A stretch of DNA of 64,000 nt. Origin: Terriglobia bacterium (GTDB lineage Bacteria > Acidobacteriota > Terriglobia > Acidiferrales > UBA7541). Each line of letters starts with the position of its first letter. Position 1 is the stretch's first letter. The position numbers were made by a program, and so were the translations under genes. Below the pieces are notes generated by a model that saw only the letters and a program-made list of their open reading frames with translations, was not told where the DNA came from and did no database searches. Shown piece by piece: positions 1-16,621 of the stretch. Location of the stretch: NCBI GenBank assembly GCA_020073705.1, contig JAIQES010000008.1, positions 1 through 64,000 of the forward strand, read 5' to 3'.

Positions 1-1
1 G

Positions 2-1510
2 ACGACCTGGCAGCAGACGAATAATCCGGTGCACTCCACAGCGGGAGCGGCTTTTGCCGCGGCGAACTGTTCCACTTGCCATACGACACAGGGTTGGGAC
101 GCAGCGTCGTTCGATCACAGCATTACCGGATTTGCCTTGACCGGAACGCACATGTCCCCGGCGCCGACGCCCTGCGCCTCCTGCCACGTGAACAACAACT
201 ACACCCTCAATTCGGCGGATTGTTATGGATGCCACCAGGCGGCTTTTCTGAGCACCACGACGCTTGGCGGGTCGGTACCGAACCACGTCACGGCCGGATT
301 TCCAACCACGGCGGCGCAGTGTGCATCATGCCACCCGATTACCACCTGGGCTGCGGGAGTCTTTAATCACAGTACAACCGGTTTCCCGCTGACCAATGGG
401 CACGCAAACGTGGCCTGCACTTTGTGCCACATCAACAACAACTATTCTTTGACGATCGCGCCGACCGACTGCGGAAACTCAGGATGCCATTTGACGACTT
501 GGCAGCAGACCAACGCCCCTCCGCACTCCGCAGCCGGAACCGCATTTGCGGCAGCGAACTGTTCCACTTGCCACACGACGGTGACTTGGAACACGGCAAC
601 ATTTGACCACAGCACGACGGGATTTGCCTTGACCGGACTGCACGTTTCCCCGACGCCGACGCCCTGCATTTCCTGCCACGTGAACAACAACTACACGCTC
701 AGTTCAACAGCCTGCTACGGTTGCCACCTCGCTGCCTGGCAAAGCACCACGACGCTCGGAGGCGCGGTGCCGAATCATATTACGGCAGGGTTCCCGACAG
801 ACTGTTCGATCTGCCACTCCACTACAAATTGGACAAGCTCAAGTTTCAATCACAACACTACGACCTTCCCGTTGACCGGTGCGCATACGACCGTAGCCTG
901 CACGTCGTGCCACGTGAATAACAACTACACCACGGTGCCGACCGCTTGCTACAGTTGCCACACCGCTGCTTGGCAAAGCACCACGACCCTTGGCGGGTCT
1001 ATACCCAATCACATCACTTCCGGTTATCCAACCACATGCGCGTCGTGCCATACGACGACTTCGTGGCTAGGCGCGACTTTTGACCACAGCACAACCGCGT
1101 TTCCGCTGACCGGCGCGCACACCACGGTGGCCTGCAACCTTTGCCACACCAGTTCAACTCCGCCGCCGACCGCTTGCTACAGTTGCCACACCACCGCCTG
1201 GCAAAGCACCACGACACTTGGCGGGTCGGTGCCGAATCACATCGCTGCCGGTTACCCGACTACGTGCGCGACATGCCATACGACGACCTCGTGGCTGGGT
1301 GCGACCTTTGTTCACACACTTTTCCAGATTCCCCACCACAGCGCTACATGCGCCAACTGTCATCCCAATTCGGCTAACTATGCGACATTTTCGTGCACGG
1401 TGGGTTGTCATTCAAAGTCGAGCACGGATTCCAATCATGGTGGCGTCTCAGGGTACGTGTATTCACCCACGAGTTGCTACAATTGCCATAAGAATGGCGG
1501 AGGAGGATAA
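2..1510 (+). CDS. Multihaem c-type cytochrome, 5' end outside the window
   Basis: The frame is open from the window edge and the first residues match an internal repeat, so the start codon and signal peptide lie upstream. The visible 502 residues carry 17 CXXCH haem-binding motifs plus two wider variants (CX4CH near residue 155, CX3CH near residue 465). They sit in repeats of roughly 65-85 residues that share NNNYT and AWQSTTTLGG segments and many extra His residues that could be distal ligands. Haem would be attached outside the cytoplasmic membrane. The stop lies 3 bases before the gene for a predicted outer-membrane barrel, and five genes up to base 5523 form one closely spaced unit, which suggests an electron conduit to the cell surface. 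The electron donor and acceptor cannot be read from the sequence. The DNA-level repeats are coding repeats. Confidence 0.93.
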   Translation, partial: TTWQQTNNPVHSTAGAAFAAANCSTCHTTQGWDAASFDHSITGFALTGTHMSPAPTPCASCHVNNNYTLNSADCYGCHQAAFLSTTTLGGSVPNHVTAGFPTTAAQCASCHPITTWAAGVFNHSTTGFPLTNGHANVACTLCHINNNYSLTIAPTDCGNSGCHLTTWQQTNAPPHSAAGTAFAAANCSTCHTTVTWNTATFDHSTTGFALTGLHVSPTPTPCISCHVNNNYTLSSTACYGCHLAAWQSTTTLGGAVPNHITAGFPTDCSICHSTTNWTSSSFNHNTTTFPLTGAHTTVACTSCHVNNNYTTVPTACYSCHTAAWQSTTTLGGSIPNHITSGYPTTCASCHTTTSWLGATFDHSTTAFPLTGAHTTVACNLCHTSSTPPPTACYSCHTTAWQSTTTLGGSVPNHIAAGYPTTCATCHTTTSWLGATFVHTLFQIPHHSATCANCHPNSANYATFSCTVGCHSKSSTDSNHGGVSGYVYSPTSCYNCHKNGGGG

Positions 1511-1513
1511 CGG

Positions 1514-3244
1514 ATGAGCTGCTTTATTTTTCCGCGTGTCCTTCTCGTGGGAGCACTTCTCTTATTTGCTTCTTCGCAGATTGATGTTCGCGCTCAAAAT
1601 GCGCCGGAGCGGGATATTTTCCATGTCAAGTACATCGCCGACGGCTCCATCTATCTGGATGCGGGTCGCAATGCCGGCCTGGAGGAAGGCATGATCTTGC
1701 ACGCCGTGCATGCGGACCCTGCCGGCGGGACGACCGAGTCTGTGCGCTTTCGAAAAGACGCCCCCATTGGCGATCTCCGGATTTTTTCCGTGGCCGACTC
1801 ATCCTCTGCGGCCGAAATCATAAAATCGCGAGAAGATTTGGTAGTGGGTGACATTGCCTACCTGGATCCCGAAAGTATCCACCTTCGGAAGGACAAGAGC
1901 AACGCAGTCGAATCCGAAAACTATCCCGTCGTCGTCACTTTTTCGTATGGGGATCCATTGGATGAGGAGGTCCGGGCAACGACGGTCTCGAGAAAAGAGG
2001 CCCCCATTGATAACCAGATGCGTGGCCGAATCGGATTGGATCTGGGGACTCTTTCAGAACCCGGAGGTCTCAGCTCACGACAAGTGGGGTTCATGGTGCA
2101 GGCCGACATGAGCCGCATTGGGGGCACGCATTGGAATTTTAAAGGTTACTGGCGGAGCCGTTTGAATACGCAAAGCACAGGCGCCTTCGGCGCAACCACG
2201 CCAATTACGCTGACCGACTTGATCAACCGAACCTACCACCTGGGACTTTTTTACCAGAATCCTGACTCTGTCATCACGATGGGTGTCGGACGTCTCTATT
2301 TGCCATATGCGCCCAGCTTGAGCACGATTGACGGCGGCTATATCGGACGCAGACTCACGCAAACCATAACCATTGGCGTGTTCGGCGGCTCAACACCTGA
2401 TCCCACGTCCTGGAGTTATAGCCCGAACCAACACATCGCCGGAACCTTCATCAACTATGAAAAGGGAGACTTCGAACACCGGCGGCTCAATAGCACGTTT
2501 GGGTTGGCCATGACTAGCATTCAATGGCATGTCGCGCGCGAGTTCGCTTTCTTCGAAAATATGGCTTCGCTAAGCCGCACTTTTTCCGTTTACAATTCGC
2601 TTCAGGCCGATGCCGCCCGGACCACGCCCGGGGGCGCTTCCTACAGCACCGGAATCACGCAGAGTTTCACGAGTGTGCGATATCAGCCCATCAAGCTGTT
2701 GACCTTCAATCTCAATCACAATTACCTGCGCAATTTGCCTACGTTTAACCCAGCCCTAATCAGCACGGGCCTGCTGGATCAGTATCTTTTCCAGGGTCTC
2801 AGCGGCGGGGTGCGTGTGGAATTCCCATATCAAATCGCAGTGTCCACCGATATCGGTCGCAGCAAGAACAGCACCGATAGAGCATCGTCCTGGAATCAGA
2901 TGTACGGCGTTAATTTTGGGAGAATCCGAAACACCGGTTTGCGATTGGACCTCCGGTACACGAAATTCAATAGCTCTTTCGGGCAGGGAACTTACGAGTT
3001 TGTTTCATTGTCCAGAAATCTTTCGGAGCGGTTGCGCGTTCAGGTGCAAGGTGGGGTGCAGCATCTCAATTCCAGTCTTAGCTCGAACTCGAATTCAAGA
3101 TTCGTGACCGGGACCGTGGATTGGACTATCGGGCCGCGCTATTTTTTTGAAGGGCTGTACAGTTGGAACACCGGCACATCAATGAATTACCGCCAGATGA
3201 ATTTGACTTTCGGATATCGGTTTGGAGGATTCCGCCCCAAATGA
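1514..3244 (+). CDS. Predicted outer-membrane beta-barrel protein of the cytochrome operon
   Basis: 576 residues with an N-terminal signal peptide (hydrophobic core at residues 9-20, likely cleavage near the AQ at 27-28). Residues ~35-120 form a small domain containing DAGRNAGLEEGM, of the kind seen in FlgT-like or stator-type exported domains. From ~165 to the end there is alternating polar/hydrophobic sequence rich in Tyr, Asn and Gly, as in transmembrane beta strands, ending in an aromatic-rich strand (YRFGGF) near the C-terminus. No enzyme motif is seen. The gene follows the multihaem cytochrome by 3 bases, with GGAGG inside the upstream gene's end, and its stop overlaps the next start (ATGA). 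By analogy with porin-cytochrome conduits it may hold the cytochrome in the outer membrane; this is an inference, not a family match. Confidence 0.75.
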   Translation: MSCFIFPRVLLVGALLLFASSQIDVRAQNAPERDIFHVKYIADGSIYLDAGRNAGLEEGMILHAVHADPAGGTTESVRFRKDAPIGDLRIFSVADSSSAAEIIKSREDLVVGDIAYLDPESIHLRKDKSNAVESENYPVVVTFSYGDPLDEEVRATTVSRKEAPIDNQMRGRIGLDLGTLSEPGGLSSRQVGFMVQADMSRIGGTHWNFKGYWRSRLNTQSTGAFGATTPITLTDLINRTYHLGLFYQNPDSVITMGVGRLYLPYAPSLSTIDGGYIGRRLTQTITIGVFGGSTPDPTSWSYSPNQHIAGTFINYEKGDFEHRRLNSTFGLAMTSIQWHVAREFAFFENMASLSRTFSVYNSLQADAARTTPGGASYSTGITQSFTSVRYQPIKLLTFNLNHNYLRNLPTFNPALISTGLLDQYLFQGLSGGVRVEFPYQIAVSTDIGRSKNSTDRASSWNQMYGVNFGRIRNTGLRLDLRYTKFNSSFGQGTYEFVSLSRNLSERLRVQVQGGVQHLNSSLSSNSNSRFVTGTVDWTIGPRYFFEGLYSWNTGTSMNYRQMNLTFGYRFGGFRPK

Positions 3245-4098
3245 GCCAGAGCGTCCGCCAGACCGGGAAATCCGCCCGAACCACCACTCGGCCTAAATGG
3301 TGGTGTGCCGTGGCGCTGGTTGGTGCGTTCGCGGTCATGAGCGGGCCTTGCGCTGCCCAGGCCCCGGCGGATGGGGGTGCTGCCTCCCCCTCGCTCGATG
3401 CCCTGGCGCGCACGAGGAAACAGGTTCAAGAATATTTCGAAGGGTTTTCCGACCTGACCTGTAAAGAGTCTGTTACGCAGCTCGTATTGAATGGAAGCGG
3501 CAGAACGATCTATCGGGAGAACTCGGCCTACGATTATCAATTTCAAACAAGCCAGCAGAACGGTATATGGAAATTTAATGAGACGCGGGAGTCTCGCAAT
3601 CCCGCTTTTCGTGATCCGGCCCGGACGTTGCTCGTGACCACCGGATTTGCCAGCCTGCTCCTCGTGGCGCATCCCATGTACGAGGCTAGCTATGAGTTCG
3701 AACCCGATGGCGCCGAAACGATCGGGGGAGTGTCCTACCTTAGGATTCGCTTCAAGCCCATTCCTGGTGCAACTTCGCCGGCGTCACTCCGTCTGCGCGG
3801 AAGAAATTACCCGTTGCCCTTGTCCGGCACGCTTTGGATCGAACCCCAATCCGGCGCAGTCGTAAAGCTTGAGGCCACGGTAGATTCCAGCTTGAGCGAT
3901 ATCGGACTGGCCGGCATGCACAGTGAAGTCCATTTTGCGTTACATCAATTCCACGAACAGGAAGAGACAGTGTGGGTTCCAGAGTCGGCTACAATTGATG
4001 TCGAGACGCCGCGCCAGCACTGGCGTAATCTCCATCGTTTCACGGCCTACAAGAGATTTAACGTCAACGTTCATGAGGAGATTGGTCAAACCCAATGA
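3241..4098 (+). CDS. Exported protein of unknown function in the cytochrome operon
   Basis: 285 residues from an ATG that overlaps the upstream stop (ATGA); a farther in-frame start exists inside the upstream gene but would delete the coupling and the signal peptide. Residues 1-40 are a basic segment followed by a hydrophobic core and an AQA cleavage-like site. The remainder is beta-rich, with no Cys pairs and no catalytic motif that I recognise; the layout resembles LolA-like or outer-membrane-associated exported proteins frequent in Acidobacteria. The stop overlaps the next start (ATGA), so it is translated together with the barrel protein and the b-type cytochrome-like protein. A structural or assembly role in the conduit is plausible but unproven. 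Confidence 0.7.
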   Translation: MSQSVRQTGKSARTTTRPKWWCAVALVGAFAVMSGPCAAQAPADGGAASPSLDALARTRKQVQEYFEGFSDLTCKESVTQLVLNGSGRTIYRENSAYDYQFQTSQQNGIWKFNETRESRNPAFRDPARTLLVTTGFASLLLVAHPMYEASYEFEPDGAETIGGVSYLRIRFKPIPGATSPASLRLRGRNYPLPLSGTLWIEPQSGAVVKLEATVDSSLSDIGLAGMHSEVHFALHQFHEQEETVWVPESATIDVETPRQHWRNLHRFTAYKRFNVNVHEEIGQTQ

Positions 4099-5036
4099 GT
4101 CAATCAGCGACAGTACAAGCTGCCATTTTCAGCAAAGATGCCTCGAAGAGGAAGCACCGCCATCGACTGGCGGCCGGCTGGATTGTGTCCATGGCGTTTG
4201 TCGCCTCATTCGCCATATACGGATTCGACTACTACACGCTCGGTTCGAGCGAGCGGCCATTCTCGCCCAAGCACGCCTTGTTGCGGCCCAGCGGCGCCAT
4301 TGGCGTAAACCTGGGCATTCTCGGCGTGCTCCTGTTTTTCTTGATTTATCTTTATCCTCTCCGCAAACGCTGGGGATGGCTTGGACGCCAGGGAAATTCG
4401 CGGCATTGGCTCGATTTCCACGTTATCCTGGGCACCGCCGCGCCAATGGTGATCGCGCTGCACTCTTCGTTCAAGTTCGGCGGGATCGCCGGAATGGCTT
4501 TTTGGATCATGACGGCGGTCACGCTCAGCGGCTTTATCGGCCGATATTTGTATTCGCAAATCCCGCGAACCTTGAACGCCGCCGAGCTTTCCATCAAGGA
4601 GATTCAGGAAATGGAAGTCAGGCTCCGATGGGATGCGGAGGAAAAGCACGAAAAAATCGGCACCGACCTTATCGATTTGTTTGCATTGCCGTCGCCGGCT
4701 CAAGTCGCTCACATATCGATGGTGGCCGCCCTCGGCTGGATGATCTGGCTCGATCTCAAGCGGCCGTTTCAAGTGTCGTGGCTGCGCTTGAGGGCCGGAG
4801 GCTTCGGGGCGTGGCTCGTCTCACTATTTGGAATTCTGCGGACGCGCAATCCCCAGTTGGAGCGCGCCATTTGCATTGCGCGGAGGCAGGCGTCGCTGTC
4901 CAAGCGCGTCCTGTTCCTCTCTCGGACGAAGCAGGTTTTTAATCTCTGGCATGTTGTCCATCGCCCGTTTAGTTATTCCTTTGCCATACTTGCCATTCTG
5001 CATATTGTGGTAGTGCTGGGGATGGGGTACAGGTAA
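4095..5036 (+). CDS. Polytopic membrane protein, b-type cytochrome-like
   Basis: 313 residues with hydrophobic segments near 25-45, 66-90, 107-128, 131-155, 205-222 and 290-311. His residues sit at membrane positions expected of b-haem ligands: HWLDFH and ALH around the third segment, WHVVH before the last segment and ILH within it. This fits a cytochrome b561/ferric-reductase-type fold that passes electrons across the inner membrane. A charged loop of about 50 residues (EIQEMEVRLRWDAEEKHEK region) lies between the two halves. The start overlaps the previous stop (ATGA) and the next gene starts 16 bases after the stop. Together with the cytochrome and barrel this suggests a quinol-to-surface route. 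The haem content is inferred from His placement only. Confidence 0.65.
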   Translation: MSQSATVQAAIFSKDASKRKHRHRLAAGWIVSMAFVASFAIYGFDYYTLGSSERPFSPKHALLRPSGAIGVNLGILGVLLFFLIYLYPLRKRWGWLGRQGNSRHWLDFHVILGTAAPMVIALHSSFKFGGIAGMAFWIMTAVTLSGFIGRYLYSQIPRTLNAAELSIKEIQEMEVRLRWDAEEKHEKIGTDLIDLFALPSPAQVAHISMVAALGWMIWLDLKRPFQVSWLRLRAGGFGAWLVSLFGILRTRNPQLERAICIARRQASLSKRVLFLSRTKQVFNLWHVVHRPFSYSFAILAILHIVVVLGMGYR

Positions 5037-5052
5037 GTGGAAGGAGATCTCG

Positions 5053-5523
5053 ATGAAGCACGCCGCTCTTTATTTCACTCTTCTTGCCATGCTCGTTTTC
5101 TCCGGAGGGTGCAAAAAGCAGGAAAGCGATTCCGACGGTATTCGTGCGGGCATCAATCAACACCTTACTTCCTTGAATTCTCTAAATCTGAGTGCGATGG
5201 ACATGAATATCACCAGCGTCTCTATTCAGGGCAACCAGGCTCAGGCACATGTGGAGTTTCGACCGAAGACCGGAGCGCCTCAAGGCGCCGGCATGCTGGT
5301 CGCCTATTCACTCAAAAAGCAAAACGGCAAGTGGGTCGTCCAAGATAGCGTGCCCGCCGGAGGAATGATCGAGCATCCCGCGCCGGGCCAAAATCCTCAC
5401 CTCAATTCGCCGTCGCCGACCACTCTGCCCAGCTTCAAGGATCTCGTGAATTCTGGGTCCGGCAGTCCGCTGCCTCCAGGACATCCCCCAGTGAAACCAC
5501 AGGGAAACATGCCTCCGCAGTAG
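5053..5523 (+). CDS. Small lipoprotein at the end of the cytochrome operon
   Basis: 156 residues starting at ATG 5053 behind a clear AAGGAG site. The N-terminus is a type II signal peptide with the lipobox FSGGC and the modified Cys at residue 20. The mature part is a short alpha/beta domain (residues ~30-100) with a KWVVQDS segment resembling DUF4864- or nuclear-transport-factor-type exported domains, followed by a Pro-rich tail (residues ~110-156) with no repeats. It is the last gene of the five-gene unit and faces a convergent gene 53 bases away. Function is not recognised; a periplasmic accessory role is likely from context. Confidence 0.7.
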   Translation: MKHAALYFTLLAMLVFSGGCKKQESDSDGIRAGINQHLTSLNSLNLSAMDMNITSVSIQGNQAQAHVEFRPKTGAPQGAGMLVAYSLKKQNGKWVVQDSVPAGGMIEHPAPGQNPHLNSPSPTTLPSFKDLVNSGSGSPLPPGHPPVKPQGNMPPQ

Positions 5524-5576: not shown

Positions 5577-6938
5577 TTAGACGTGAACCAGAGCGCTCTG
5601 CTTTGCTTCGCTGCTTCCCTCGGTCGTCATGTCGCGCATTCCGACCTGGACGCCAATTTTCTTGAGGAAGGCTGTAGGAGCCTCGCCACCTGCGAAGATC
5701 CAGACAAAATCGTTGGGAATTTCCTGCAATTTTCCGCCGACATCGAGGATTGCGGACTTTTCCGTAAACTCGACTGGATTGGAGTTGAAGATTACCTGGA
5801 TTTTTCCTTTTCGCATGCTTTCTTCCATGCGCTTTTCGTTTCGGTCTTTGAGCCGGGTGAAACATTCCTTTCGATAGGAGACCGTAACCTTGTTGCCAAT
5901 CTGGTGAGCAAGCCCCATGGCGGCCTCGACGGCGCTGTCGCCGCCACCGACGATGAGTATATTCTTGTTCACGTAATGGTCGGTTTCGATTAATCGATAC
6001 ATGACTTTCGGCAATTCCTCTCCCTTGACGCCAAGTTTTCGCGGACTGCCCCCCTTGCCGATTGCCAGGACCACGGTGCGGGCGCGATATTGGCCCTTGG
6101 CGGTCACAACATCAAAAATGCCATCTCCTCCCTTTTTGATTTCTTCGACTTTTTCGCCGCCGCGAAATTTAAAATCGACTTTGTGCAGCACCTCGTTCCA
6201 GACGGACAAGAGATCTTCCTTGGAAAGTTCCGTCTTCCTGAATTTTCCGTAAATGGGGAGTTCGACGGGGCTCGTCAAGACCAATTTTTGGCGCGGATAT
6301 TTCGCTACAGTGCCGCCGATTTCACTCTCATCTATGGTGAGATAATTCAGTTTTCGTTCGATTGCTCGCAGCGAAGCGCTGATTCCTCCGGGACCCGCGC
6401 CCACGATAAGCGCATCGAGGAGGTCCGGCGCCGGTCTGGCGCCTCGCAACCCCGGGATTCTCATCGCGATTGTATCGATGCAGTCGCGTCCCTGGTTCAC
6501 GGCATTCTTGATCAGCGCCAATCCACCAAGCTCCCCAACGATAAACATGTTTGAAACGCTCGTCTCATATTCTGGCGTCAGGTGCGGCATATCCGCTCCC
6601 ATGCTCGGGTTTGCCATCACCATCGTAATGGCCCCGACGGGGCATGCCTCCGCGCACAGGCTGTGGCCGATGCACTTGTATCCGTTGACGATGACCGCTT
6701 GGCCCGCGAGTATTGCAAGGACATCTCCCTCGGGACAAACCGTCGTGCATGTCGCGCAGCCGATGCAATGCGTTGTGTCAATATGCGGATGCTGCGATCG
6801 GGGCCCGTCCGAACGCAGGCTTCCTTTTTTCACGGCTTCGTGAGCACGAGCCTCCCGCTCCTTTTGTTTCTTGAGGTATCGCCGCACAAAAAACATCGTA
6901 ACGATCACAGCGATTAGGAGTCCGACAAGGTTATTCAC
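5577..6938 (-). CDS. Membrane-anchored ferredoxin-FAD/NAD(P) oxidoreductase
   Basis: 453 residues from a GTG at 6938. Residues 5-20 form a single transmembrane segment. Residues 50-110 are a 2[4Fe-4S] ferredoxin-like domain: C58, C61, C64, C68 for cluster I; cluster II has C89, H92, C95, C99, so its second Cys is replaced by His. Residues ~160-440 are a thioredoxin-reductase-like flavoprotein with an FAD dinucleotide motif (GAGPGG) and a second nucleotide motif (GGGDSAVEAA), but no CxxC redox disulfide. It resembles YpdA/YumC-like proteins fused to ferredoxin. It would move electrons between NAD(P)H and an Fe-S partner at the inner face of the membrane. It converges on the cytochrome operon, so a functional link is possible but not shown. 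Confidence 0.85.
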   Translation of the reverse strand: MNNLVGLLIAVIVTMFFVRRYLKKQKEREARAHEAVKKGSLRSDGPRSQHPHIDTTHCIGCATCTTVCPEGDVLAILAGQAVIVNGYKCIGHSLCAEACPVGAITMVMANPSMGADMPHLTPEYETSVSNMFIVGELGGLALIKNAVNQGRDCIDTIAMRIPGLRGARPAPDLLDALIVGAGPGGISASLRAIERKLNYLTIDESEIGGTVAKYPRQKLVLTSPVELPIYGKFRKTELSKEDLLSVWNEVLHKVDFKFRGGEKVEEIKKGGDGIFDVVTAKGQYRARTVVLAIGKGGSPRKLGVKGEELPKVMYRLIETDHYVNKNILIVGGGDSAVEAAMGLAHQIGNKVTVSYRKECFTRLKDRNEKRMEESMRKGKIQVIFNSNPVEFTEKSAILDVGGKLQEIPNDFVWIFAGGEAPTAFLKKIGVQVGMRDMTTEGSSEAKQSALVHV

Positions 6939-7135
6939 AATGGGATTTTCTCATAAGGGACGAAGGAATACATCTCTGCCATGGAAGAATTGTGCCGAGA
7001 GCGGCATGGAATGATTCGCAGGACCCATGTCGCGGCTGGGTGGGCATAAGATTGGGGACAGCGAGGAAAACGCGGTTTCGGAGAATCAGAATCTAAGGCA
7101 GCTAACTCAGTGATAAGATTGCAGAAACCAACTGC

Positions 7136-7262
7136 GCGCCCGTAGCTCACCTGGATAGAGCATCTTCCTTCGAACAATGAGGTAACGTCACTTAAGCGCA
7201 GGAACCGCCGCCACTTAGCTCTAGGGGCCCACCGCTGAATTGCCCCGGAGCTGCCCCCTACA
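7136..7262 (+). repeat. tRNA-Arg 5'-half fragment plus flank, left copy of a long direct repeat
   Basis: The first ~38 bases match the 5' half of a tRNA-Arg gene: acceptor GCGCCCG, D-arm GCTCACCTGGATAGAGC and the anticodon region CCTTCGAA (anticodon TCG). The sequence leaves the tRNA after TTCGAA, so there is no T-arm and no functional tRNA. The copy at 31100 has the same tRNA part and continues in parallel for about 90 further bases with scattered substitutions. This pattern (tRNA fragment plus element end, direct orientation) is what attachment sites of integrative elements look like. This copy has more changes in the tRNA part (GCTCACC, ATCTTCC) than the right copy. Confidence 0.75.
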
Positions 7263-7313
7263 AGAGCCGCGAAGGTGCGTTTTATGGCTCCTTCTCTTGG
7301 TCGGCTGGGCGGC

Positions 7314-7347
7314 ACACCAAGAGATTCGAACTCCTAACCTTCTGTTA
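7314..7347 (-). other. Possible tRNA 3'-half fragment (T-arm like)
   Basis: On the minus strand this stretch reads GGTTAGGAGTTCGAATCTCT followed by TGGTGTGCC. AGGAG-TTCGAAT-CTCTT can form a T-arm, and the following bases look like a decayed acceptor 3' strand. Pairing with the GCGCCCG acceptor 175 bases away is poor, and the orientation is opposite to that fragment, so the two cannot make one tRNA. It is best read as a scrambled remnant of the same or another tRNA attachment site. Confidence 0.35.
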
Positions 7348-8007
7348 TTTGTGGCAACCAACTTCAACGTTGATCCGGTTGCTTACGAGCCAAAAAGCAT
7401 CCAAGTTCCGCCGCTCGATGACCCGATAATTGACTTAACTTTAGATCGAACGGTCTTCCGCTCGATACTCACTCAGTCGGGACTAGGGGCGAATTGCACC
7501 CCAAACTTCCACGTCTGGTTATCGGATGGCGTTGCAACCGCCCCCAAATCACACCTAACAAGTACCGCACACCGGATTGCTCTGTTTCATCCACGCGTGT
7601 GAGGATTTAGCACAATTCGATAAGACAAAGCATGAACGATACGGGCCAATATCCTGAAACAAGAAAGGTGGACTGAGGAGAACTAAGTATCGTCTCCTTC
7701 ATTGAGGACCCATATGGCCAGGCATCGGAAGCACCGCATCTCCACTCCAAAAACACGAAGAAGGCCCGTGGCTCGGGCCAAGACTGAAACGACTGCCAGG
7801 GAGGTCGCCGCAAGGGCTGCGACGGTGAAGCCGCCGACTGACCAGCCCGAGTTTTTGTACCACGGCGAGTGAGAGGGTTTAAATCGGCACCGAAGACAAT
7901 CGACCCGTGTTCTGTCAGACTTTAAGGATGCATGTTTCACATTGAATCGCACATGTACTTCGGGGAGCTATACCCCATCTTCCCCATCCGCCAGGATTGA
8001 TCCGTCA
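7348..8007. other. Stretch without a convincing gene between the att-like repeat and the EPS cluster
   Basis: No frame here has both a ribosome binding site and a recognisable protein. A short minus-strand reading ending at 7473 (WKFGVQFAPSPD then stop) resembles the C-terminal tails often seen on integrases next to tRNA genes, but only about 20 residues are readable. A minus-strand frame at 7683-7952 encodes a hydrophobic stretch but lacks a Shine-Dalgarno site. The region is probably decayed integration debris. Confidence 0.4.
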
Positions 8008-8121
8008 CCTCTTGTGTACCAATTTGAGACATAAGGATTAATAACATGTATACCGGCATCTTCCTCATGTTCTAGGATCATCGTGTCGCCTCATATGTAC
8101 CAGTTTGAAACAAGAGAATTA
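8008..8121 (+). repeat. Two imperfect direct repeats, about 32 bp each
   Basis: The units at about 8008-8041 and 8088-8121 share the core TGTACCARTTTGARACA followed by an AAGRATTAA-like end, spaced 80 bases start to start. They lie 150 bases upstream of the first exopolysaccharide gene. They could be regulator sites for the cluster or leftover terminal repeats of an insertion sequence (IS21-type ends contain such repeated units). Nothing in the sequence decides between these. Confidence 0.5.
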
Positions 8122-8268
8122 AGAGGTGCAGTCAGGTGCGGGAATGGCGAATAAGGAATGATCTATGGCTCTCAGTATGGGGGAGCAATATGGGGTTGAG
8201 CTCCTGCAATATCCGCGCTTGACACCGCAAATGTCGTTCGTTCGGACTTTTGGAACCCATAGGGTGCA

Positions 8269-11200
8269 GTGATGAACTTGAATAATAGGATTCCCATTGG
8301 CAATTGGCCTCGTCGTGGTAAGCGGCAGGTCCGACTGTTTGCTCTTCGGAGCCTAGCGGTCATCATCTTCACTTGCGCGATCTCGCTGGTAGGAAGGGTA
8401 ACCTTTGCGCAAGATCGTTCTGAAGGCGGGGCAGTCCGTTCTGCTGTCGAGCTATCCTTGCAAGACTTTGTCCCCGTCTCCGCCACAGTTTCTCAGATCG
8501 CCGCTGTGCTGGCGTCAGACCCGGGGCTGTTCCTGGAACTAAAGCGTCTGGCTTCCCAGGAAGCGGCTAGCAAAGGCCAAATCATCCTGGAATCTGACCT
8601 GACGGATGCTGCTATTTTAGCACGGCTTCGCCAAGACCTAAAGTTTCGTGTGACGGCTACCGGCCTCTTGCAACGCTATGGTCATTTGCTTCCGAAAACC
8701 AAACCAGGCGTCATCGGGTCGGAAGAAGAAACCCTCAAGAAGGCACGCATACCGCGAGTCCCTGAAGGGCTGAACCGGAATGAATTGCAAAGTGCGGTGG
8801 GTAGTGGCAGGACCATTCCTAGTCCTGCTGAACTACCGAAAGACACATCTTCTCCTGAACTCCTGGCCAGTCCGTCGGCAGAAGGCGGACTTCTTGCCCG
8901 CGCTAGCTCTCGCTTGACGACAACCAGCGCGGACAATGCGGACGAAGAGGACAAAGAGGACAAGAATCTTTCCCAGTTAGGCACCAGTCAATTGGCCGGT
9001 GCGTACATTGCGCCTCCGCCCGCCGCCGTCCCCACTGTGATGACCTCGGATACTGCCTCTTCATCTACCTCCCAAGTATCAACGCCGGCCGTCACCCCAC
9101 CGCCACAAAGAGAGAAAAAACCACGGGCCGGCAGTTTTCAGGCCGTGCAAGCGTCCGAATCCGAAATGCCGGGTATGGAACGCCATAAATCACCCTATTC
9201 CGACATTCCATCAATGTACGACATCTACATCCATGCGGGGCCGAATTCCGGGCCGGTGCGACGCTTTGGCGAGGACATATTCGAAAATGGGGCAGACATG
9301 TCTTCCGGGATTCCAATCGATTTCCCCGCCTCTCCTGATTATGTGGTGGGTCCGGGAGACGGGCTGATGATCAACCTGTGGGGCGGCGTTTCACAGCGTC
9401 TCGAACGCACGGTCGACCATCAAGGCCGGATTTCAATTCCGGAAGTCGGTCCGGTTTTTGTCAGCGGCAAACCTCTTGGTGAAGTGCAGCTAGCCGTGCA
9501 GCGCGAGTTGCGAACGATGTTTCGCACGGTTTCCGCGGATGTTTCGCTGTCGAGGCTCCGCACTGTTCGAATCTACGTTGTCGGAGACGTGAATGGCCCA
9601 GGCGCTTATGACGTTAGCTCCCTTTCAACGCCTCTCAATGTGCTGCTCGCCGCGGGTGGACCAACTTCCGGTGGGTCCATGCGACTCGTTAAGCAGTTTC
9701 GAGGAAACACACTGGTGCAGCAGGTCGATTTGTACGACCTGCTCCTGCGCGGCATCCGTTCCGACTTAAAGCCATTGCAACCTGGTGACACGTTGCTGGT
9801 CCCTCCGGTGGGCACGCAGGTGCGAATTGATGGAATGGTCCGGCGGCCTGCCCTGTATGAGCTAAACGGTGAAACAACTCTCGCCCAGGTCATTGAACTT
9901 GCCGGCGGAATCCTTCCGACGGCGGCCCTCAACCATATTGAAGTCCAGCGTCTGGTGGCCCACGAGAAACGCACGATGTTGAGCTTGGACGTCTCCGGAA
10001 ACTCAGACATGACCGAAATTGAGAAGAAACTGGCGTCCTTCACGATCTCGGACCGCGATGAGGTTCATATCTTCCCCATCGCTTCCTTCAACCAGAACGC
10101 GGTTTACCTGCAAGGTCATGTGCTACGTGAGGGACGCTACTCCTACAAGCCAGGCATGAGGTTAACAGACCTCGTGTCTTCGTATGCCGACCTGCTGCCG
10201 GAGCCCTCTACGGCATATGCCGAAATCATCCGTCTGACTCCGCCGGACTATCATCCGAGCTTGGAGAGCTTCCACCTCGGCGAGGCACTGGCGAACCCCG
10301 CTACCGCGCCGAAGCTCCAACCGCTGGATACGGTGCGCATTTTCGGCCGGTACGACTTCGAAGAAACCCCCGGCGTGATAGTGAGCGGCGCTGTGCGAAA
10401 ACCCGGGTTATTTCAGACGCCAGGCCGGATTCACTTTCTGGATGCCATCCAACTTGCTGGTGGCTTGACTCCGGATGCCTCCATGGATTCGGCACAGATC
10501 ATCAGACCGATGGCGGATAGTTCGGTGCAGATTCTAAACGTACAACTGAAAGACGCTCTCAACGGAGATCCAATCAACAACGTACTGCTTGGGCCGCGAG
10601 ACCGCATCTTGATACAGGAAAACATTCTGCGAGACGATCCCCGGTCGGTCCTGATTGCGGGAGATGTTGCGAACCCCGGACGCTATCCACTGACTTCGAA
10701 CCTCCGCATATCCGACTTGATCCGCATCGCGGGAGGGTTGAAACGCGGCGCAGATGAGAATACCGCGGACTTGACTCAATTCATCACTGCCCCGAATGCG
10801 CCGGTCGTCGCCAAGCACATGAATGTCAGTGTTGCAAGAGCGATGGTGGGCGACCCAGCAGATAACGTTTCCCTGAACGATGGAGACGTCCTAACGATCC
10901 ATGAAGTTCCTGGATGGAGCGACGTCGGAGCGTCTGTCGTGATTGAGGGCGAAGTAAGGCATCCAGGAACATACGGTATTCGTTCCGGTGAACGGCTCAG
11001 TTCTGTTCTCGAGCGAGCCGGCAGTTTCCAACCGGAAGGCTATCCCTATGGCGCGATCTTGAGAAGAGAGCAGGTTCAGGAATTAGAAACGCAATCGCGC
11101 GACGAACTGATTATGCGCGTGAGGAACGCGCAAAATGATCTGGGGTTGCAACCTGACACCGACCTCAAGGCGAAGGCAGCGAGGGAACTTGCTTACCAGC

Positions 11201-11682
11201 AATGGCAGAGCAACCTTGACGCATTGAGTGCCAATCCGCCGTCGGGGCGCATCGCTATTCGGATTTCAACGGATATCAATCGTTGGAAGAACACACCCGC
11301 GGACATCCAGCTCCTGGCAGGAGACACGCTCATCATCCCGAAGAAACCCGGCGTCGTGATGGTCACAGGCCAGGTCTTCAACCCCACCGCGGTTTCGCAC
11401 CGACCAGGCAGGAGCGCAAAGTGGTACCTGACTCAGGCTGGAGGTACGACTCCACTTGCCAACAAGAAGGCGATCTTTGTGGTCAAGGCCGATGGTTCCG
11501 TGATTGGGTCCAAGAACGGACTGTGGTCCGGAGACTCGCTCAGGGCGGCACTCCAGCCGGGCGACATGGTTGTAGTGCCGGAAAAAGCGCTCTCTGGCAA
11601 TGTGCCTTGGCAAAATATCCTTCTCTCTGCGCAAGTGGCGGCGTCCATGGCCACGGCCGTTATTATCGGGCTTCACTATTAG
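8269..11682 (+). CDS. Wza-like polysaccharide export protein with about seven SLBB repeats
   Basis: 1137 residues, much longer than the ~380 of classical Wza. GTG 8269 and ATG 8272 are both possible starts behind AGGG. The N-terminus has a basic stretch and a hydrophobic core ending VTFAQ near residue 45 (signal peptide). Residues ~60-300 are a variable, Ser/Pro/Thr-rich region. The polysaccharide-export domain is near 350-430 (VVGPGDGLMINLWGG). About seven SLBB-type units follow, recognisable by the recurring V.G.V..PG.Y...L..LI..AGG pattern. The last ~25 residues are hydrophobic and may form the outer-membrane helix or anchor. It would form the outer-membrane/periplasmic export channel for the polymer made by the genes downstream; it leads the same-strand cluster. 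Confidence 0.9.
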   Translation: MMNLNNRIPIGNWPRRGKRQVRLFALRSLAVIIFTCAISLVGRVTFAQDRSEGGAVRSAVELSLQDFVPVSATVSQIAAVLASDPGLFLELKRLASQEAASKGQIILESDLTDAAILARLRQDLKFRVTATGLLQRYGHLLPKTKPGVIGSEEETLKKARIPRVPEGLNRNELQSAVGSGRTIPSPAELPKDTSSPELLASPSAEGGLLARASSRLTTTSADNADEEDKEDKNLSQLGTSQLAGAYIAPPPAAVPTVMTSDTASSSTSQVSTPAVTPPPQREKKPRAGSFQAVQASESEMPGMERHKSPYSDIPSMYDIYIHAGPNSGPVRRFGEDIFENGADMSSGIPIDFPASPDYVVGPGDGLMINLWGGVSQRLERTVDHQGRISIPEVGPVFVSGKPLGEVQLAVQRELRTMFRTVSADVSLSRLRTVRIYVVGDVNGPGAYDVSSLSTPLNVLLAAGGPTSGGSMRLVKQFRGNTLVQQVDLYDLLLRGIRSDLKPLQPGDTLLVPPVGTQVRIDGMVRRPALYELNGETTLAQVIELAGGILPTAALNHIEVQRLVAHEKRTMLSLDVSGNSDMTEIEKKLASFTISDRDEVHIFPIASFNQNAVYLQGHVLREGRYSYKPGMRLTDLVSSYADLLPEPSTAYAEIIRLTPPDYHPSLESFHLGEALANPATAPKLQPLDTVRIFGRYDFEETPGVIVSGAVRKPGLFQTPGRIHFLDAIQLAGGLTPDASMDSAQIIRPMADSSVQILNVQLKDALNGDPINNVLLGPRDRILIQENILRDDPRSVLIAGDVANPGRYPLTSNLRISDLIRIAGGLKRGADENTADLTQFITAPNAPVVAKHMNVSVARAMVGDPADNVSLNDGDVLTIHEVPGWSDVGASVVIEGEVRHPGTYGIRSGERLSSVLERAGSFQPEGYPYGAILRREQVQELETQSRDELIMRVRNAQNDLGLQPDTDLKAKAARELAYQQWQSNLDALSANPPSGRIAIRISTDINRWKNTPADIQLLAGDTLIIPKKPGVVMVTGQVFNPTAVSHRPGRSAKWYLTQAGGTTPLANKKAIFVVKADGSVIGSKNGLWSGDSLRAALQPGDMVVVPEKALSGNVPWQNILLSAQVAASMATAVIIGLHY

Positions 11683-11694
11683 CGTGGACGAATC

Positions 11695-14199
11695 ATGAAA
11701 CGCGGCGGGCGGAAATGCTTTTTCGGTACATGTCTTCTTATCGCTGTGGGAATACTGGACCCGGGTTGCCGCGCGCAGTCGCAAGTCGACACGCCTCCAC
11801 CGAAAAGAGAAGTGTTCGATACGGGAGATGACGTGCAAGCTTCAGAACAAAAAACAATCACGCCTCGAGTTGATCAAGGCGTGGGTGTCTATGGCCAGAA
11901 TGGCCTAGGCAAGTCATTCCTGAACAACTTGTGGTCCGACCAAAAGTCGATTTGGAGTAGTCCCGCCCGTCTCCGATGGGCTGATACATCGTGGCTTTTT
12001 CCCATGGCAGCGGTGACCGGAGGGTTCTTCGCGACTGATCGCTCCGCAGCGGCGGCGCTGTCGAATGATCCGAAAAGGCTAAATCGATTCCGCACAGCAT
12101 CAGATATCGGTGTGGCTTCTCTGGTAGGAGCCGCAGGAGGCCTGTACCTCTGGAGCAAGATTTCTCCCGACGACCGCCGAAGAGAGACAGGCATTCTTGC
12201 GGGGGAAGCTGCGATCGACAGTTTCGCAGTGAACTCTGCGCTCCAATTTTCATTTGGACGAGAACGGCCATATCAAGACCAAGGCCGCGGGAACTTCTTT
12301 CAAGGCGGAACTTCGTTTCCTTCGGACCATGCCGTTGTTGCTTGGTCGGTTGCCAGCGTAATCGCCCACGAATACCCTGGTCCTCTCACCCAATTTTTCG
12401 TTTACGGCATGGCGGCAGGCGTAAGTGCATCTCGCGTCATCGGAAAAGAACACTTCCCGTCGGATGTTTTGGTTGGCAGCGCGATCGGATGGCTGATAGG
12501 CCGCGAGGTTTATCGCGCCCACCACGACCCCAATCTCGGGGGGACGGGGGTAACCCGTCTTTCAGGAGACGACACAGAAGACCGGCGGGATCGCAAAAAC
12601 ATGGGCTCGCCTTTTGTCCCTCTGGATAGCTGGGTTTATCAGGTCTTCGAAAGGCTTGCAGCGTTGAGATACATCGACACGGCGATCATGGGGCTGAAAC
12701 CATGGACGCGAATCGAGTGCGCCCGGCTGACCGCGGAAGCTGGTGACAACTTGCAGGAAAGAAGCACACTGAATAAGGATGCGGAACAATTACAGGCCCG
12801 CCTGCAAGGGGAATTCGCGTACGAACTCAACCTGCTTGGGGGAGGCCGCAATTTCACCGCGAATTTGGGGTCGGTCTACACCAGAGCCGTTTCGATCAGC
12901 GGGCCCCCTTTGACCGACAGTTATCATTTCGGACAGACAATGGCCTATGATTTCGGGAGGCCCTTTGAACAAGGAACGAACGGGCAAATTGGCGGATCAT
13001 TCTCCGCGGCGGCGGGGCCCCTCGCGGTTTACGTCCGTGCAGAGTATCAACATGCCCCTTCCGCCCCCGGGCTTTCTCCCAGCGTGGTGAACTTCATCTC
13101 CCAAGCTGATGGCGGAGTGGCTATTGGCGGCAAACCCATTCCCGTCTCTGAAATCTCATCCGCTCCCGTGGGGGCGGTCAATCGCGCCAGACTTCTCGAT
13201 GCTTACGCAACAGTGAATTTGAGTAACTGGCAGATCGTAATTGGCAGGCAGAGCCTCGATTGGGCGCCCGGCCCCGGCAATTCGATGATGTGGAACAACA
13301 ATGTCGAGCCTGTGGATATGGTCCGCGTCGTCAACCCTGAGCCCTTCGAGCTGCCGGGATTTCTTCGACACCTGGGTCCGGTTCGTTTTGACCAATTTTT
13401 TGGCCGCCTGGAAGGTCACCCATACATTCCACGGCCATTTGTTTATGCGCAAAAATTCAACATTAAGCCGTTTCCCTTTCTAGAATTGGGTTTCGGGCGA
13501 AGGACATTGATCGGGGGAACAGGTGGCGACCCGCTGACGTTGCACAACTTGCTTGGTAGCTACATTGGCAGAACCGATCCGAAGACAGGTTCAGTGCCAG
13601 GAGACACCGAGACCGAAATGGATTGGACGTTCTATGTCCCGAAGGTGAGAAATTACATCGTTCTCTATGGAGACGCCTACGCCGAGGACGACGGCCTTCC
13701 CATCCAGAACCCGGCGAGGAATCCCTGGCACCCTGGTATTTACATTACTCATTTCCCAAGAATACCCAAGCTTGATTTCCATATGGAAGGTGTATCGACA
13801 GAGCAGAGCGGGCTCCTCCACGGTTTAGGCAATCACGGCGTATTTAACTATTGGAATGAACTCTATCATGACGGAAATACGGTCAATGGGAATCTGCTTG
13901 GCAACACGGTAGGCCGGGATGGACGCGCCATCCAGAGTTGGTTCACGTATTGGATTTCGCCAGCGAATACTCTGCAGTTTACGTATCGTCACAACACGGT
14001 CAGTTCGGATTTCGTCCCCGGCGGAGGAGCCTGGCAGGACTATTCGGTGAGAAGTGACACCTATTTAAAGAGTGGCTTTTACGTGAAGGCCGAGCTGCAA
14101 TACGAAAATATTCCCCATTTTCCCATGCTGTTCAACGGACCTAAGAGCAATTTCGCTGCGGTGGTGGAAGTGGGCTTCATTCCGAGAGGGAAGAAATGA
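11695..14199 (+). CDS. PAP2 phosphatase-Wzi capsule assembly fusion protein
   Basis: 834 residues with an N-terminal signal peptide. Residues ~90-270 carry all three PAP2 (type 2 phosphatidic acid phosphatase) motifs: GRERP near 188, PSDHAV near 209 and SRVIGKEHFPSD near 245-256, so the acid phosphatase site looks intact. Residues ~360-834 resemble the Wzi outer-membrane barrel that anchors or assembles capsular polysaccharide, including an IVIGRQSLDWAPGPGN segment and a long run of aromatic beta strands. It follows the export gene by 12 bases. One reading is that the enzyme dephosphorylates a lipid pyrophosphate carrier on the periplasmic side while the barrel handles the polymer; the fusion itself is directly visible, its coupling is inference. 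Confidence 0.82.
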   Translation: MKRGGRKCFFGTCLLIAVGILDPGCRAQSQVDTPPPKREVFDTGDDVQASEQKTITPRVDQGVGVYGQNGLGKSFLNNLWSDQKSIWSSPARLRWADTSWLFPMAAVTGGFFATDRSAAAALSNDPKRLNRFRTASDIGVASLVGAAGGLYLWSKISPDDRRRETGILAGEAAIDSFAVNSALQFSFGRERPYQDQGRGNFFQGGTSFPSDHAVVAWSVASVIAHEYPGPLTQFFVYGMAAGVSASRVIGKEHFPSDVLVGSAIGWLIGREVYRAHHDPNLGGTGVTRLSGDDTEDRRDRKNMGSPFVPLDSWVYQVFERLAALRYIDTAIMGLKPWTRIECARLTAEAGDNLQERSTLNKDAEQLQARLQGEFAYELNLLGGGRNFTANLGSVYTRAVSISGPPLTDSYHFGQTMAYDFGRPFEQGTNGQIGGSFSAAAGPLAVYVRAEYQHAPSAPGLSPSVVNFISQADGGVAIGGKPIPVSEISSAPVGAVNRARLLDAYATVNLSNWQIVIGRQSLDWAPGPGNSMMWNNNVEPVDMVRVVNPEPFELPGFLRHLGPVRFDQFFGRLEGHPYIPRPFVYAQKFNIKPFPFLELGFGRRTLIGGTGGDPLTLHNLLGSYIGRTDPKTGSVPGDTETEMDWTFYVPKVRNYIVLYGDAYAEDDGLPIQNPARNPWHPGIYITHFPRIPKLDFHMEGVSTEQSGLLHGLGNHGVFNYWNELYHDGNTVNGNLLGNTVGRDGRAIQSWFTYWISPANTLQFTYRHNTVSSDFVPGGGAWQDYSVRSDTYLKSGFYVKAELQYENIPHFPMLFNGPKSNFAAVVEVGFIPRGKK

Positions 14200-14260
14200 T
14201 CGCCACTTTCTCCTCGATGGGTTTTAGATTCAGCCATCTGGCGTACGGGAAAAGGGATCT

Positions 14261-14371
14261 CCGCACGTGCGGCCTATTTAGCGATGCGGGTGGCAAACGA
14301 CATTAGCCAAGTGTCTGTAACTGCTTATCTGAGCATGGGTTAGGTCACAAATGCCCTGTAAGTGACAGGGC
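14261..14371. promoter_or_regulatory. Palindrome and hairpin upstream of the NusG-like gene
   Basis: A perfect 12-bp palindrome CCGCACGTGCGG lies at 14261-14272. A perfect 7-bp stem GCCCTGT/ACAGGGC with a 5-base loop lies at 14353-14371, 18 bases before the NusG-like start. Neither is followed by a T tract, so neither is a standard terminator. The hairpin may affect translation of the antiterminator gene or mark a recruitment site; this is inference. Confidence 0.4.
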
Positions 14372-14388
14372 GAAGCCATAAGTGGCAT

Positions 14389-15021
14389 ATGACGAAAGTG
14401 AAAAAGGAAATGTTTGAAGAAAACACAGAGCAGGCCGCGGGAAACGTCGTCTCAGTCTGGCATGCGATATACACGCGCCCTCGGCATGAGAAGGCCGTGG
14501 CCAAACATCTTGTTGAGAGGCGCATCGAGGCGTTTTTGCCCACGTACGAAAAATTCCAGCGGTGGAAAGACCGCAAGAAGCTGGTCCGTTTTCCACTTTT
14601 TCCTGGCTATGTGTTTGTCCGCATTTCCCGGCGCGATCGTCTTGCCGTACTCCAACTTGCCGGCGTTGTTGGATTTGTCCGGTTCGGCGGTTCGCCAGCC
14701 GAGGTCCCGGAGACAGAACTGTACGCCCTGAGCATAGCAGTTGAGACTGGTGCCCGGTTGGAACCGCACCGATACCTGAAGGTTGGCCGGCGTGTAAGAG
14801 TCTGCCATGGCCCACTCCAAGATACCGAGGGAATACTCATTCGCAAGAAGAGTGGACACCGTCTTGTGCTTTCCATTGACCTTATCCAGCGATCCGTCGC
14901 GGTTGAGGTCGATGCTGCTGATGTCACCCCTATTTCAGAAATAGGACGCACGAGCATACAGGGAATGCAGCATTCCCTGGTTGCAATGTCCGCAGGAGTG
15001 ACGCCAGGCGCAATTTATTGA
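14389..15021 (+). CDS. NusG/RfaH-like transcription antitermination protein (UpxY-type)
   Basis: 210 residues from ATG 14389 (an ATG at 14410 is also possible). Residues ~22-125 are a NusG N-terminal domain (WHAIYTRPRHEKAVAKHL, then PLFPGYVFV), the surface that contacts the RNA polymerase clamp. Residues ~140-190 are a KOW-type domain (GPLQDTEGILIRKK). Its length and location inside an exopolysaccharide cluster match UpxY- and RfaH-like operon-specific paralogues, which allow RNA polymerase to read long surface-polysaccharide operons. It lies between the outer-membrane genes and the chain-length gene, and a 7-bp hairpin lies just upstream. Confidence 0.88.
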   Translation: MTKVKKEMFEENTEQAAGNVVSVWHAIYTRPRHEKAVAKHLVERRIEAFLPTYEKFQRWKDRKKLVRFPLFPGYVFVRISRRDRLAVLQLAGVVGFVRFGGSPAEVPETELYALSIAVETGARLEPHRYLKVGRRVRVCHGPLQDTEGILIRKKSGHRLVLSIDLIQRSVAVEVDAADVTPISEIGRTSIQGMQHSLVAMSAGVTPGAIY

Positions 15022-15113
15022 AGGTATCAAGGCTGCCTCCGGCTTGGCAGTTCGGACATCAGAGAGCGACGGGCACATTTGGGATGGCGGCAGAAAGAAA
15101 ATAGAGGGCGCAC

Positions 15114-16526
15114 TTGCCAAACTTGGAAGATCCATACACAGTCGAGACGGCCACGTATGAGCCGCAATTAACCAGCGAACATACGTCAACTATATCTAAT
15201 AAATTGCAGTCGGTCGATTTAGCCTGGTTAATCTGGGCCCAACGGAAATTCCTGGGCAGGTTGATGGCTTGGGGTCTGGTTCTGTTTACCGTCATCGCCT
15301 TCCTGCTTCCAAAGCGCTACGCCGCCACAGCGCAGCTGATGCCTCCTGATTTCAGTTCCTCTGCCGACATGATCTCGGCAATGCCCGCCCTTTCCTCTGG
15401 AGGAGATTCATCCGGAGGGGCTGGTGGCTCGGTGATGGGCTTAGCGAACAAGCTACTCGGCTTGAACAGCACCGGGCAGCTCATCATTGGTGTGCTTCAA
15501 AGCCGGACAGTGGAAGACCACTTGATCGAGCGATTCGGTTTGATGGACTTGTATTCGACGAAGTATCCGGAGGATGCACGAAAGAAATTGGAAAGTTACA
15601 GCACGATTAAGGAAGATTCCCAAAGCGGCATTATCAGCATTGTTGTTGAAGACAAGTCTCCGGCCCGTGCCGCAGCAATGGCGCAGGCGTACACGGAGGA
15701 GCTGAACCAAATTCTGGCGGATGTGAACACCTCAGCAGCGCATCGTGAGCGGCTCTTCATCGAACGGCGAATTACCGAAGTGAAGGCGCATCTAGACGCC
15801 TCCGCCAAGGACTTCAGCGTGTTCGCCAGCAAGAACACGGCCATTGATATTCCCCAACAAGCGAAAGCGATGGTCGAAGCCGCCGCGGATTTGCAAGCGC
15901 AGCTAATCGCGGCGCAATCGATGCTGCGGGGCCTCCAGCAACTCTACACCAACAGCAATCCTCGCGTGCAGCAGGTACAGGGCCAGGTGGCGGAACTCGA
16001 ACGGCAGTTGAACAAACTGGGCGGAAAGGACGTTAAGTCGGACCAGGGCTCCTCGTTGCTGAAGGACGAACTATATCCCTCCATCCGGCAGCTTCCGCTG
16101 CTGGGCGTTCGGTACCTCGATCTTTATCGCCAAAACAAGATTGACGAAGCCGTTTTCGAACTTCTTTCGAAGGAGTACGAACTCGCGAAGATGGAGGAGG
16201 CGCGGAACACGCCGACCGTCCATGTGCTCGATCAGGCGGGTGTCCCGAAGAAGAAAGTAAGCCCTCATCGGCTGTTGATCATGTTGGGTGGTTCGTTTTC
16301 TTGTTTGCTGCTCGGCACGACTTGGCTTGTCGCTGGCGCGTACTGGAAACGGGTCGATCCACAAGAACCTTGGAGAATTTTCGCGCAAGAAGTCCATATG
16401 ACCACGAAGGCACGCATCTGTGATTCCGCTTGGGCGCTGCGAATGCGTGGTCGTATTTCCCGGAGTTGGGGAAAGTTTCGATCTCGACGGACCGATGACG
16501 ACTTGCAGGACTCACATAACCCTTGA
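15114..16526 (+). CDS. Wzz-type polysaccharide chain-length determinant
   Basis: 470 residues. The best start is TTG 15114 with GAGGG seven bases upstream. A first transmembrane segment lies near residues 50-68 and a second near 385-407, enclosing a large periplasmic region with long coiled-coil helices (for example residues ~230-300). A Pro-rich VPKKKVSPHRLL motif precedes the second segment, as in Wzz/GNVR proteins. There is no Walker A or Tyr-rich tail, so this is not a tyrosine-kinase fusion and the kinase partner is not in the window. It would set polymer length with the Wzy-like protein. The last ~45 residues, after the second helix, are basic and unlike the family. Confidence 0.88.
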   Translation: MPNLEDPYTVETATYEPQLTSEHTSTISNKLQSVDLAWLIWAQRKFLGRLMAWGLVLFTVIAFLLPKRYAATAQLMPPDFSSSADMISAMPALSSGGDSSGGAGGSVMGLANKLLGLNSTGQLIIGVLQSRTVEDHLIERFGLMDLYSTKYPEDARKKLESYSTIKEDSQSGIISIVVEDKSPARAAAMAQAYTEELNQILADVNTSAAHRERLFIERRITEVKAHLDASAKDFSVFASKNTAIDIPQQAKAMVEAAADLQAQLIAAQSMLRGLQQLYTNSNPRVQQVQGQVAELERQLNKLGGKDVKSDQGSSLLKDELYPSIRQLPLLGVRYLDLYRQNKIDEAVFELLSKEYELAKMEEARNTPTVHVLDQAGVPKKKVSPHRLLIMLGGSFSCLLLGTTWLVAGAYWKRVDPQEPWRIFAQEVHMTTKARICDSAWALRMRGRISRSWGKFRSRRTDDDLQDSHNP

Positions 16527-16621
16527 GATCAATTGCAAAGTGACCCCTGCTTCCTGCGAGACTTTCTTTTTATGTTGATGTCAATGGAGCAATTCATTCA
16601 ACCAGCTCAGGACAATCACCA

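Follow-up and report, generated by a model that had tools for sequence, protein, structure and literature searches.

A PCC3-type Gene Plan with a Linked NAD(P)H Reductase in Acidobacteriota, a Candidate Trans-envelope Electron Conduit

Organization of the Locus

We analyzed the first 64 kb of contig C28 (JAIQES010000008.1) of the Terriglobia bacterium assembly GCA_020073705.1 (G000; 3.79 Mb in 78 contigs), hereafter the window, whose base 1 is base 1 of the contig. Its start carries genes for a possible conduit of electrons to the cell surface: cytochromes with many heme sites, an outer-membrane barrel, an exported protein, an inner-membrane protein (IMP), and a putative lipoprotein (table 1). 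The five forward-strand open reading frames described in the original prediction, their spacings of 3, −4, −4, and 16 bases, and the 17 CXXCH motifs of the first frame were all recovered. That frame also has one CX3CH and one CX4CH site, for a total of 19, and its start is missing, as the gene is cut off by the contig end.

The unit is larger than these five genes. Another contig of this assembly, C13, ends within a cytochrome gene: it holds the 5′ part, including a hydrophobic export segment, and the final 272 bases of the contig are 95% identical to window positions 1–272. Counted as CX2-4CH, the two pieces have 15 and 19 sites, three of them common in the overlap, which gives 31. This number obeys the 3k+1 rule of the relatives (see below), so it is supported, though unproven, that the pieces form one gene, here called cytB, which would then have ∼816 codons. 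Directly upstream of its 5′ part on C13 is cytA, which encodes a protein of 679 amino acids with 23 CXXCH motifs. In addition to cytA, the unit includes an opposite-strand gene for a flavoprotein, located beyond the lipoprotein gene.

Table 1. Coordinates of the conduit genes; positions are those of the window unless a locus is given
Feature	Position	Strand	Basis or remarks
cytB, 5′ part	L012:17788-18999		end of contig C13; overlap with window start
cytB, 3′ part	2-1510	+	17 CXXCH, one CX3CH, one CX4CH; Pfam Cytochrome_C7, Cytochrom_CIII
Outer-membrane barrel	1514-3244	+	signal; N-terminal domain, residues 35-117; 22 predicted strands, residues 169-570
Exported protein, conserved in unit	3241-4098	+	present in 78/80 loci
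IMP, probable two-heme cytochrome b	4095-5036	+	WX3HX13H and SGXXG motifs
Small probable lipoprotein, optional	5053-5523	+	12/80 loci; N-termini of relatives
Membrane-anchored flavoprotein	5577-6938	−	Pfam, PDB sequence matches, motifs, linkage

Conservation across Acidobacteriota

An alignment search of genome contigs with the IMP found 221 relatives, of which the best 80 were kept as loci. By record title, all 80 are from Acidobacteriota, nearly all of them metagenome-assembled genomes (MAGs) and mostly from soil and peat; two records are isolate-like (strain AB60 and Occallatibacter savannae AB23). The flavoprotein gene was seen in 79 of these loci, the barrel in 76, cytB in 64, and cytA in 56, with the IMP present throughout (see table 1 for the remaining two genes). 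Many of the losses are contig ends. When only the 52 loci that extend over 9 kb upstream are considered, linkage is strict: cytA and cytB are each found in 50, the barrel and the flavoprotein each in 51, and the exported protein in 52. Within an even draw of the phylum that included the window's own genome, 35 of 297 genomes have the IMP at E ≤ 1e-20.

A similar set of genes, in another order, occurs in Bacteroidota on a plasmid of Emticicia oligotrophica, where CcsA, the IMP, the flavoprotein, cytochromes with 23 and 40 CXXCH motifs, and a barrel-like protein are encoded. The last is weakly similar to the barrel of the window (22% over 311 amino acids); a search of plasmids with the barrel itself as query gave no match. 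Plasmid matches of cytA outside Emticicia were partial (24–41% of the query; two of 33 were examined). The Emticicia CcsA/ResB cytochrome c assembly protein is encoded immediately upstream of the conduit genes (L014:4896-7979), and an assembly factor and a conduit may travel together on this plasmid. The genome of the window itself has three cytochrome c assembly genes above cutoff.

Two Cytochromes with Different Rules of Length

Heme sites were counted in intact single copies, excluding cut, split, and missing ones (34 of 80 loci for cytA and 26 of 80 for cytB). CytA has 23 sites in 45 of 46 copies, and the gaps between sites are nearly fixed. CytB varies from 18 to 61 sites, and the number is 3k+1 in 51 of 54 copies when sites are counted as CX2-4CH (the exceptions are in L090, L102, and L136) and in 43 of 54 when CXXCH alone is counted. 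The spacing of its sites one to seven is constant in 52 of 54 copies, and the later ones recur at gaps of ∼32, 16, and 25 residues (461 triads), which together describe a seven-heme head followed by 4–18 three-heme repeats. Thirteen different repeat numbers were found. Because copies are related, these counts are not independent events.

The density of sites is wire-like, with a median of 25.9 residues per site. A hydrophobic segment precedes the first site in all 46 copies of cytA and in 51 of 54 copies of cytB, and a further one is located downstream in just one cytA copy and in no cytB copy. At the sequence level, neither protein therefore resembles a cytochrome that is cytoplasmically anchored and soluble in relatives. 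The fixed cytA would suit a wire that spans a gap of constant width, and the three-heme steps of cytB one that is free of such a constraint. Among PDB sequences, the only matches of cytA were to short pieces of small cytochrome c3. The MtrC/MtrF domain model PF22113 scored above cutoff for cytA and the 5′ part of cytB, a match that we set aside as probably due to shared spacing of CXXCH motifs.

Outer-Membrane and Exported Components

The barrel was modeled with AlphaFold2 (AF2) from 62 sequences. By our reading, the model has 22 strands preceded by a small N-terminal domain (mean predicted local distance difference test score of 78.2; predicted template modeling score of 0.60). Foldseek returned 270 PDB matches at E ≤ 1e-3, and outer-membrane barrels were found throughout the matches listed. 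In VIA-align, the strand region aligned with TonB-dependent receptors (best Z of 17.3, root-mean-square deviation [rmsd] of 4.8 over 346 residues), which are themselves barrels of 22 strands. The assignment of this protein as a barrel is thus upheld by structure prediction and by both comparisons.

The small N-terminal domain matches FlgT_C in 19 of the 62 members. Several relatives have a long N-terminal extension on the barrel; in L077:6202-7437 it consists of an AMIN domain and a long linker, and extensions of similar appearance are found in several other relatives. The AMIN extension may tether the barrel to the cell wall.

The exported protein has no confident family assignment, with weak matches to PorA and to PROCT in five of 53 members each. 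The lipoprotein label is only partly borne out, because the protein encoded in the window lacks a textbook lipobox (FSGGC), while some relatives have LSAGC or LFAGC.

A Probable Cytochrome b in the Inner Membrane

The IMP (313 amino acids) has the motifs W105-x3-H109-x13-H123, S145-G-x-x-G149, and W285-x3-H289-x13-H303. The pattern, which was described for the IMP of PCC3 conduits, fits 51 of 52 aligned relatives as well as the Emticicia protein. By our reading of an AF2 model, the motifs are on helices spanning residues 102–123, 130–155, and 275–309. The protein is probably a two-heme cytochrome b. Weak Pfam matches among the 52 IMPs are to DUF4405 (34 members), cytochrome b561 (11), and ferric reductase (PF01794; 11, best E of 0.0023). 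Foldseek found nothing at E ≤ 1e-3, and the only match of an IMP profile among PDB sequences was a designed filament (E of 0.069). NOX5 (Z of 6.9, rmsd of 6.3, 155 residues aligned) and STEAP4 are among the structural matches listed; the NOX5 score is below the level at which helical bundles can be trusted and is mixed with unrelated entries. An apparent fusion of the IMP to the flavoprotein in L164 and a long IMP frame in L167 were rejected as upstream extensions and overlapping frames.

Linked NAD(P)H Reductases

The flavoprotein has a hydrophobic N-terminal anchor, two 4Fe-4S motifs, and flavin adenine dinucleotide (FAD) and NAD(P) domains of the thioredoxin-reductase fold. In 75 of 77 sequences, the first motif is CxxCxxCxxxCP and the second is CxxHxxCxxxCP. 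The conserved His that replaces a Cys in the second motif hints at a His-ligated or three-iron cluster. Its matches are to the thioredoxin reductase and YpdA families; against the curated family models, its scores are below all cutoffs listed. In 68 of the 79 loci with the gene, it is within 150 bp of the IMP gene. The genome of the window has one full copy and, elsewhere, one partial match of 30%, and with a single full copy, its place beside the conduit is unlikely to be due to chance.

In 20 more distant Acidobacteriota loci, ten have the flavoprotein type, seven have a reductase with FAD_binding_6, NAD_binding_1, and Fer2 domains, and none has both. Three of these seven Fer2-type reductases helped build the search profile; their domains were checked. 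Counting either of the two unrelated families, an NAD(P)H reductase is present in 79 of 80 close loci and 17 of 20 distant ones, and the two never co-occur in a locus.

Related modules were observed elsewhere. On plasmids of Bradyrhizobium BTAi1 and Pontibacter (L145:7605-9759 and L146:5179-8666), an NAD(P)H/FAD/2Fe-2S reductase is encoded together with an IMP-like protein of ∼250 amino acids that misses the full PCC3 motif and a small cytochrome c3 protein, with no porin. About 4 kb from the conduit in L048 (14916-17105), a natural fusion joins cytochrome b561 to a thioredoxin-reductase-like FAD/NAD(P) domain. Reductase linkage, plasmid triads, and this fusion suggest that the partner of the IMP is an NAD(P)H dehydrogenase, as opposed to the quinone pool proposed in PMC5566968. 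Beside a distant relative of the IMP, L172 encodes a multiheme protein with ten sites and two FHA domain matches (6958-9342) and a thioredoxin-reductase-like flavoprotein with cyclic-nucleotide-binding and 4Fe-4S domains (10261-12630). This pair appears to be a regulated variant of the electron module.

Relation to Known Conduits

PCC3 was published by He et al. (2017; PMC5566968) and is also treated in PMC10734462 and PMC12442390. As described there, the PCC3 IMP has ∼300 amino acids, with SGXXG on helix 4 and two WX3HX13H motifs on helices 3 and 5 (PMC5566968), features also found here. The units further share a barrel gene in the cluster, a giant cytochrome of ∼21–27 hemes, to which cytA corresponds by number alone, and a repeat-rich second cytochrome of variable length. 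They differ in the host phylum, the conserved exported protein, the linked NAD(P)H reductase, and the strict 3k+1 site number of the variable cytochrome. The barrel also differs, with 22 strands as compared with many PCC3 porins that are predicted to have more, up to 42. The unit is therefore a PCC3-type plan in Acidobacteriota, likened to PCC3 by its gene content and IMP motif.

The original prediction suggested that the conduit may differ from the well-known ones. At the level of sequence families, the contrast with Mtr/Omc holds: none of the 62 barrels matched an MtrB/PioB-type family in Pfam at E ≤ 0.05, and membership in Mtr, Omc, or HmcA families was rejected because there was no match or scores were far below cutoff, as was that of a DmsE-type decaheme model for the cytochromes of the unit. 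As a type, however, the conduit is only partly different, because PCC3 was published in 2017 (PMC5566968); host phylum and linked reductase are what set it apart. MtrCAB, MtoAB, and PioAB share the general principle of a barrel and multiheme cytochromes across the outer membrane, but they have decaheme cytochromes where the window's unit has 23 and ∼31 sites, and their inner-membrane partner is of another type. Conduits described from ghost-rock MAGs (PMC13264449, group 1), compared here by description alone, have a barrel of ∼20 strands, a ferredoxin-NADP reductase gene near seven of 11, and hosts that include Acidobacteriota, but are centered on a large decaheme cytochrome. Like the membrane domain of ferric reductase and NOX, the IMP has two helices that each carry an HX13H motif, and it would work with an NAD(P)H flavin partner to move electrons from one side of the membrane to the other. 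It differs in the weakness of the Pfam match, in having its flavin domain as a separate protein of another family, and in that electrons would pass to multiheme cytochromes.

Porin-cytochrome clusters of the MtrB and ExtB/E types were already reported for Acidobacteria, in Holophaga (PMC7399161). The main text of PMC5566968 does not contain "acidobacteri", and PCC3, Acidobacteri, and cytochrome were not found together in the literature searched, a weak absence given that subscription papers and preprints were mostly uncovered. New here are a cytA fixed at 23 hemes, a cytB built of a seven-heme head and three-heme repeats, and a linked NAD(P)H reductase.

A Model for Electron Transfer and Its Alternatives

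The conserved operon very probably builds a heme-filled wire across the whole cell envelope. Our preferred reading, to which we give slightly better than even weight, is a PCC3-type trans-envelope electron conduit with NAD(P)H-linked input. Within the membrane-anchored flavoprotein, electrons from NAD(P)H would pass to FAD and on to the 4Fe-4S clusters. They would next reach the two b hemes of the IMP, and from these cytA, presumably loaded with 23 hemes, in the periplasm. CytA, if it is the cytochrome that enters the barrel, would transfer them through the 22 strands to cytB, whose seven-heme head and three-heme repeats would extend past the outer membrane and deliver them to an acceptor outside the cell, for example an Fe(III) or Mn(IV) oxide or a humic quinone. 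A more specific form of this reading, which we advance tentatively and hold at a little under even likelihood, would make the conduit of Acidobacteriota a quinone-free NAD(P)H:extracellular oxidoreductase. Two proteins, the flavoprotein and the IMP, would form a NOX-like core that accepts either of the unrelated reductases and pushes electrons first into a periplasmic wire fixed at 23 hemes and then into an outer wire of 7 + 3n sites (n of 4–18), the reach of which would evolve by three hemes at a time. Of the surface electron conduit originally proposed, the anatomy stands (a predicted 22-strand barrel, two exported giant cytochromes, a b-heme-type IMP, and strict linkage), and the function is one that we infer from it.

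Several points weigh against the preferred reading. The joining of C13 to C28 is putative, as is the placement of cytB outside the cell. In the window, the flavoprotein gene runs opposite to the others and is thus not part of their transcript. Three distant loci (L159, L163, and L167) have neither reductase in the stretch examined, and in some others the reductase is 1.3–5.7 kb from the IMP gene. PCC3 itself was called functionally unverified (PMC12442390).

The same conduit could instead be linked to quinones, with the IMP exchanging electrons with the quinone pool, as He et al. (2017; PMC5566968) proposed for a quinone-active IMP, and with the flavoprotein otherwise employed, for example as a source of reductant for c-heme assembly. 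Its thioredoxin reductase and YpdA matches suit the reduction of thiols, and the Emticicia cluster includes a CcsA/ResB assembly protein. However, none of the 77 flavoproteins has the active-site CXXC of thioredoxin reductase in residues 331–360 (a crude position check), its fused 4Fe-4S domain suits electron transfer, and the alternative in distant loci is a reductase of the FAD/NAD/2Fe-2S electron-transfer type. We know of no thiol reduction by that class, and overall we consider a quinone-linked conduit unlikely, while granting it appreciable weight. Inward flow is improbable. In that case an extracellular donor, such as Fe(II) or a mineral, would supply electrons that enter at cytB, cross the barrel and cytA, and leave the IMP for quinone or NAD(P)+. 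Reduction of NAD(P)+ by Fe(II) would be uphill, and the hosts found here are mostly Acidobacteriota MAGs from soil and peat. Multiheme wires can work in both directions and iron oxidizers are the hosts for which PCC3 was first proposed (PMC5566968), but in Sideroxydans ES-1, expression of both PCC3 clusters, Slit_0867-0870 and Slit_1446-1449, was lowered with Fe(II) (PMC8788666), a response that argues against inward flow in that strain.

It is also conceivable, but very improbable, that there is no extracellular conduit and that the cytochromes are a periplasmic redox buffer or reductase, with the barrel exporting or importing something else. Such a role would agree with the best structural matches of the barrel, which are ushers and TonB receptors with no cytochrome-bearing porin among the matches listed, and it gains from the fact that both cytochromes are localized by inference. 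Against it stand the barrel gene, which accompanies the cytochromes in 51 of 52 loci, and the contrast between a fixed cytA and a cytB that changes by whole three-heme steps.

Neighboring Genes

Adjoining the conduit, window positions 8269–19470 hold a polysaccharide export and capsule cluster that encodes SLBB/Poly_export, a Wzi-PAP2 fusion, GNVR, a sugar transferase, and Polysacc_synt.

Significance

Little is known about the capacity of Acidobacteriota, an abundant phylum of soils, to export electrons. A conduit conserved among them, found also in isolate-like records, would open a path to iron oxides and humics. The conduit also makes a question about PCC3 directly testable, namely whether the electrons of the IMP come from quinones or from NAD(P)H. 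For physics and engineering, the three-heme step provides a natural series of wires that differ in length.

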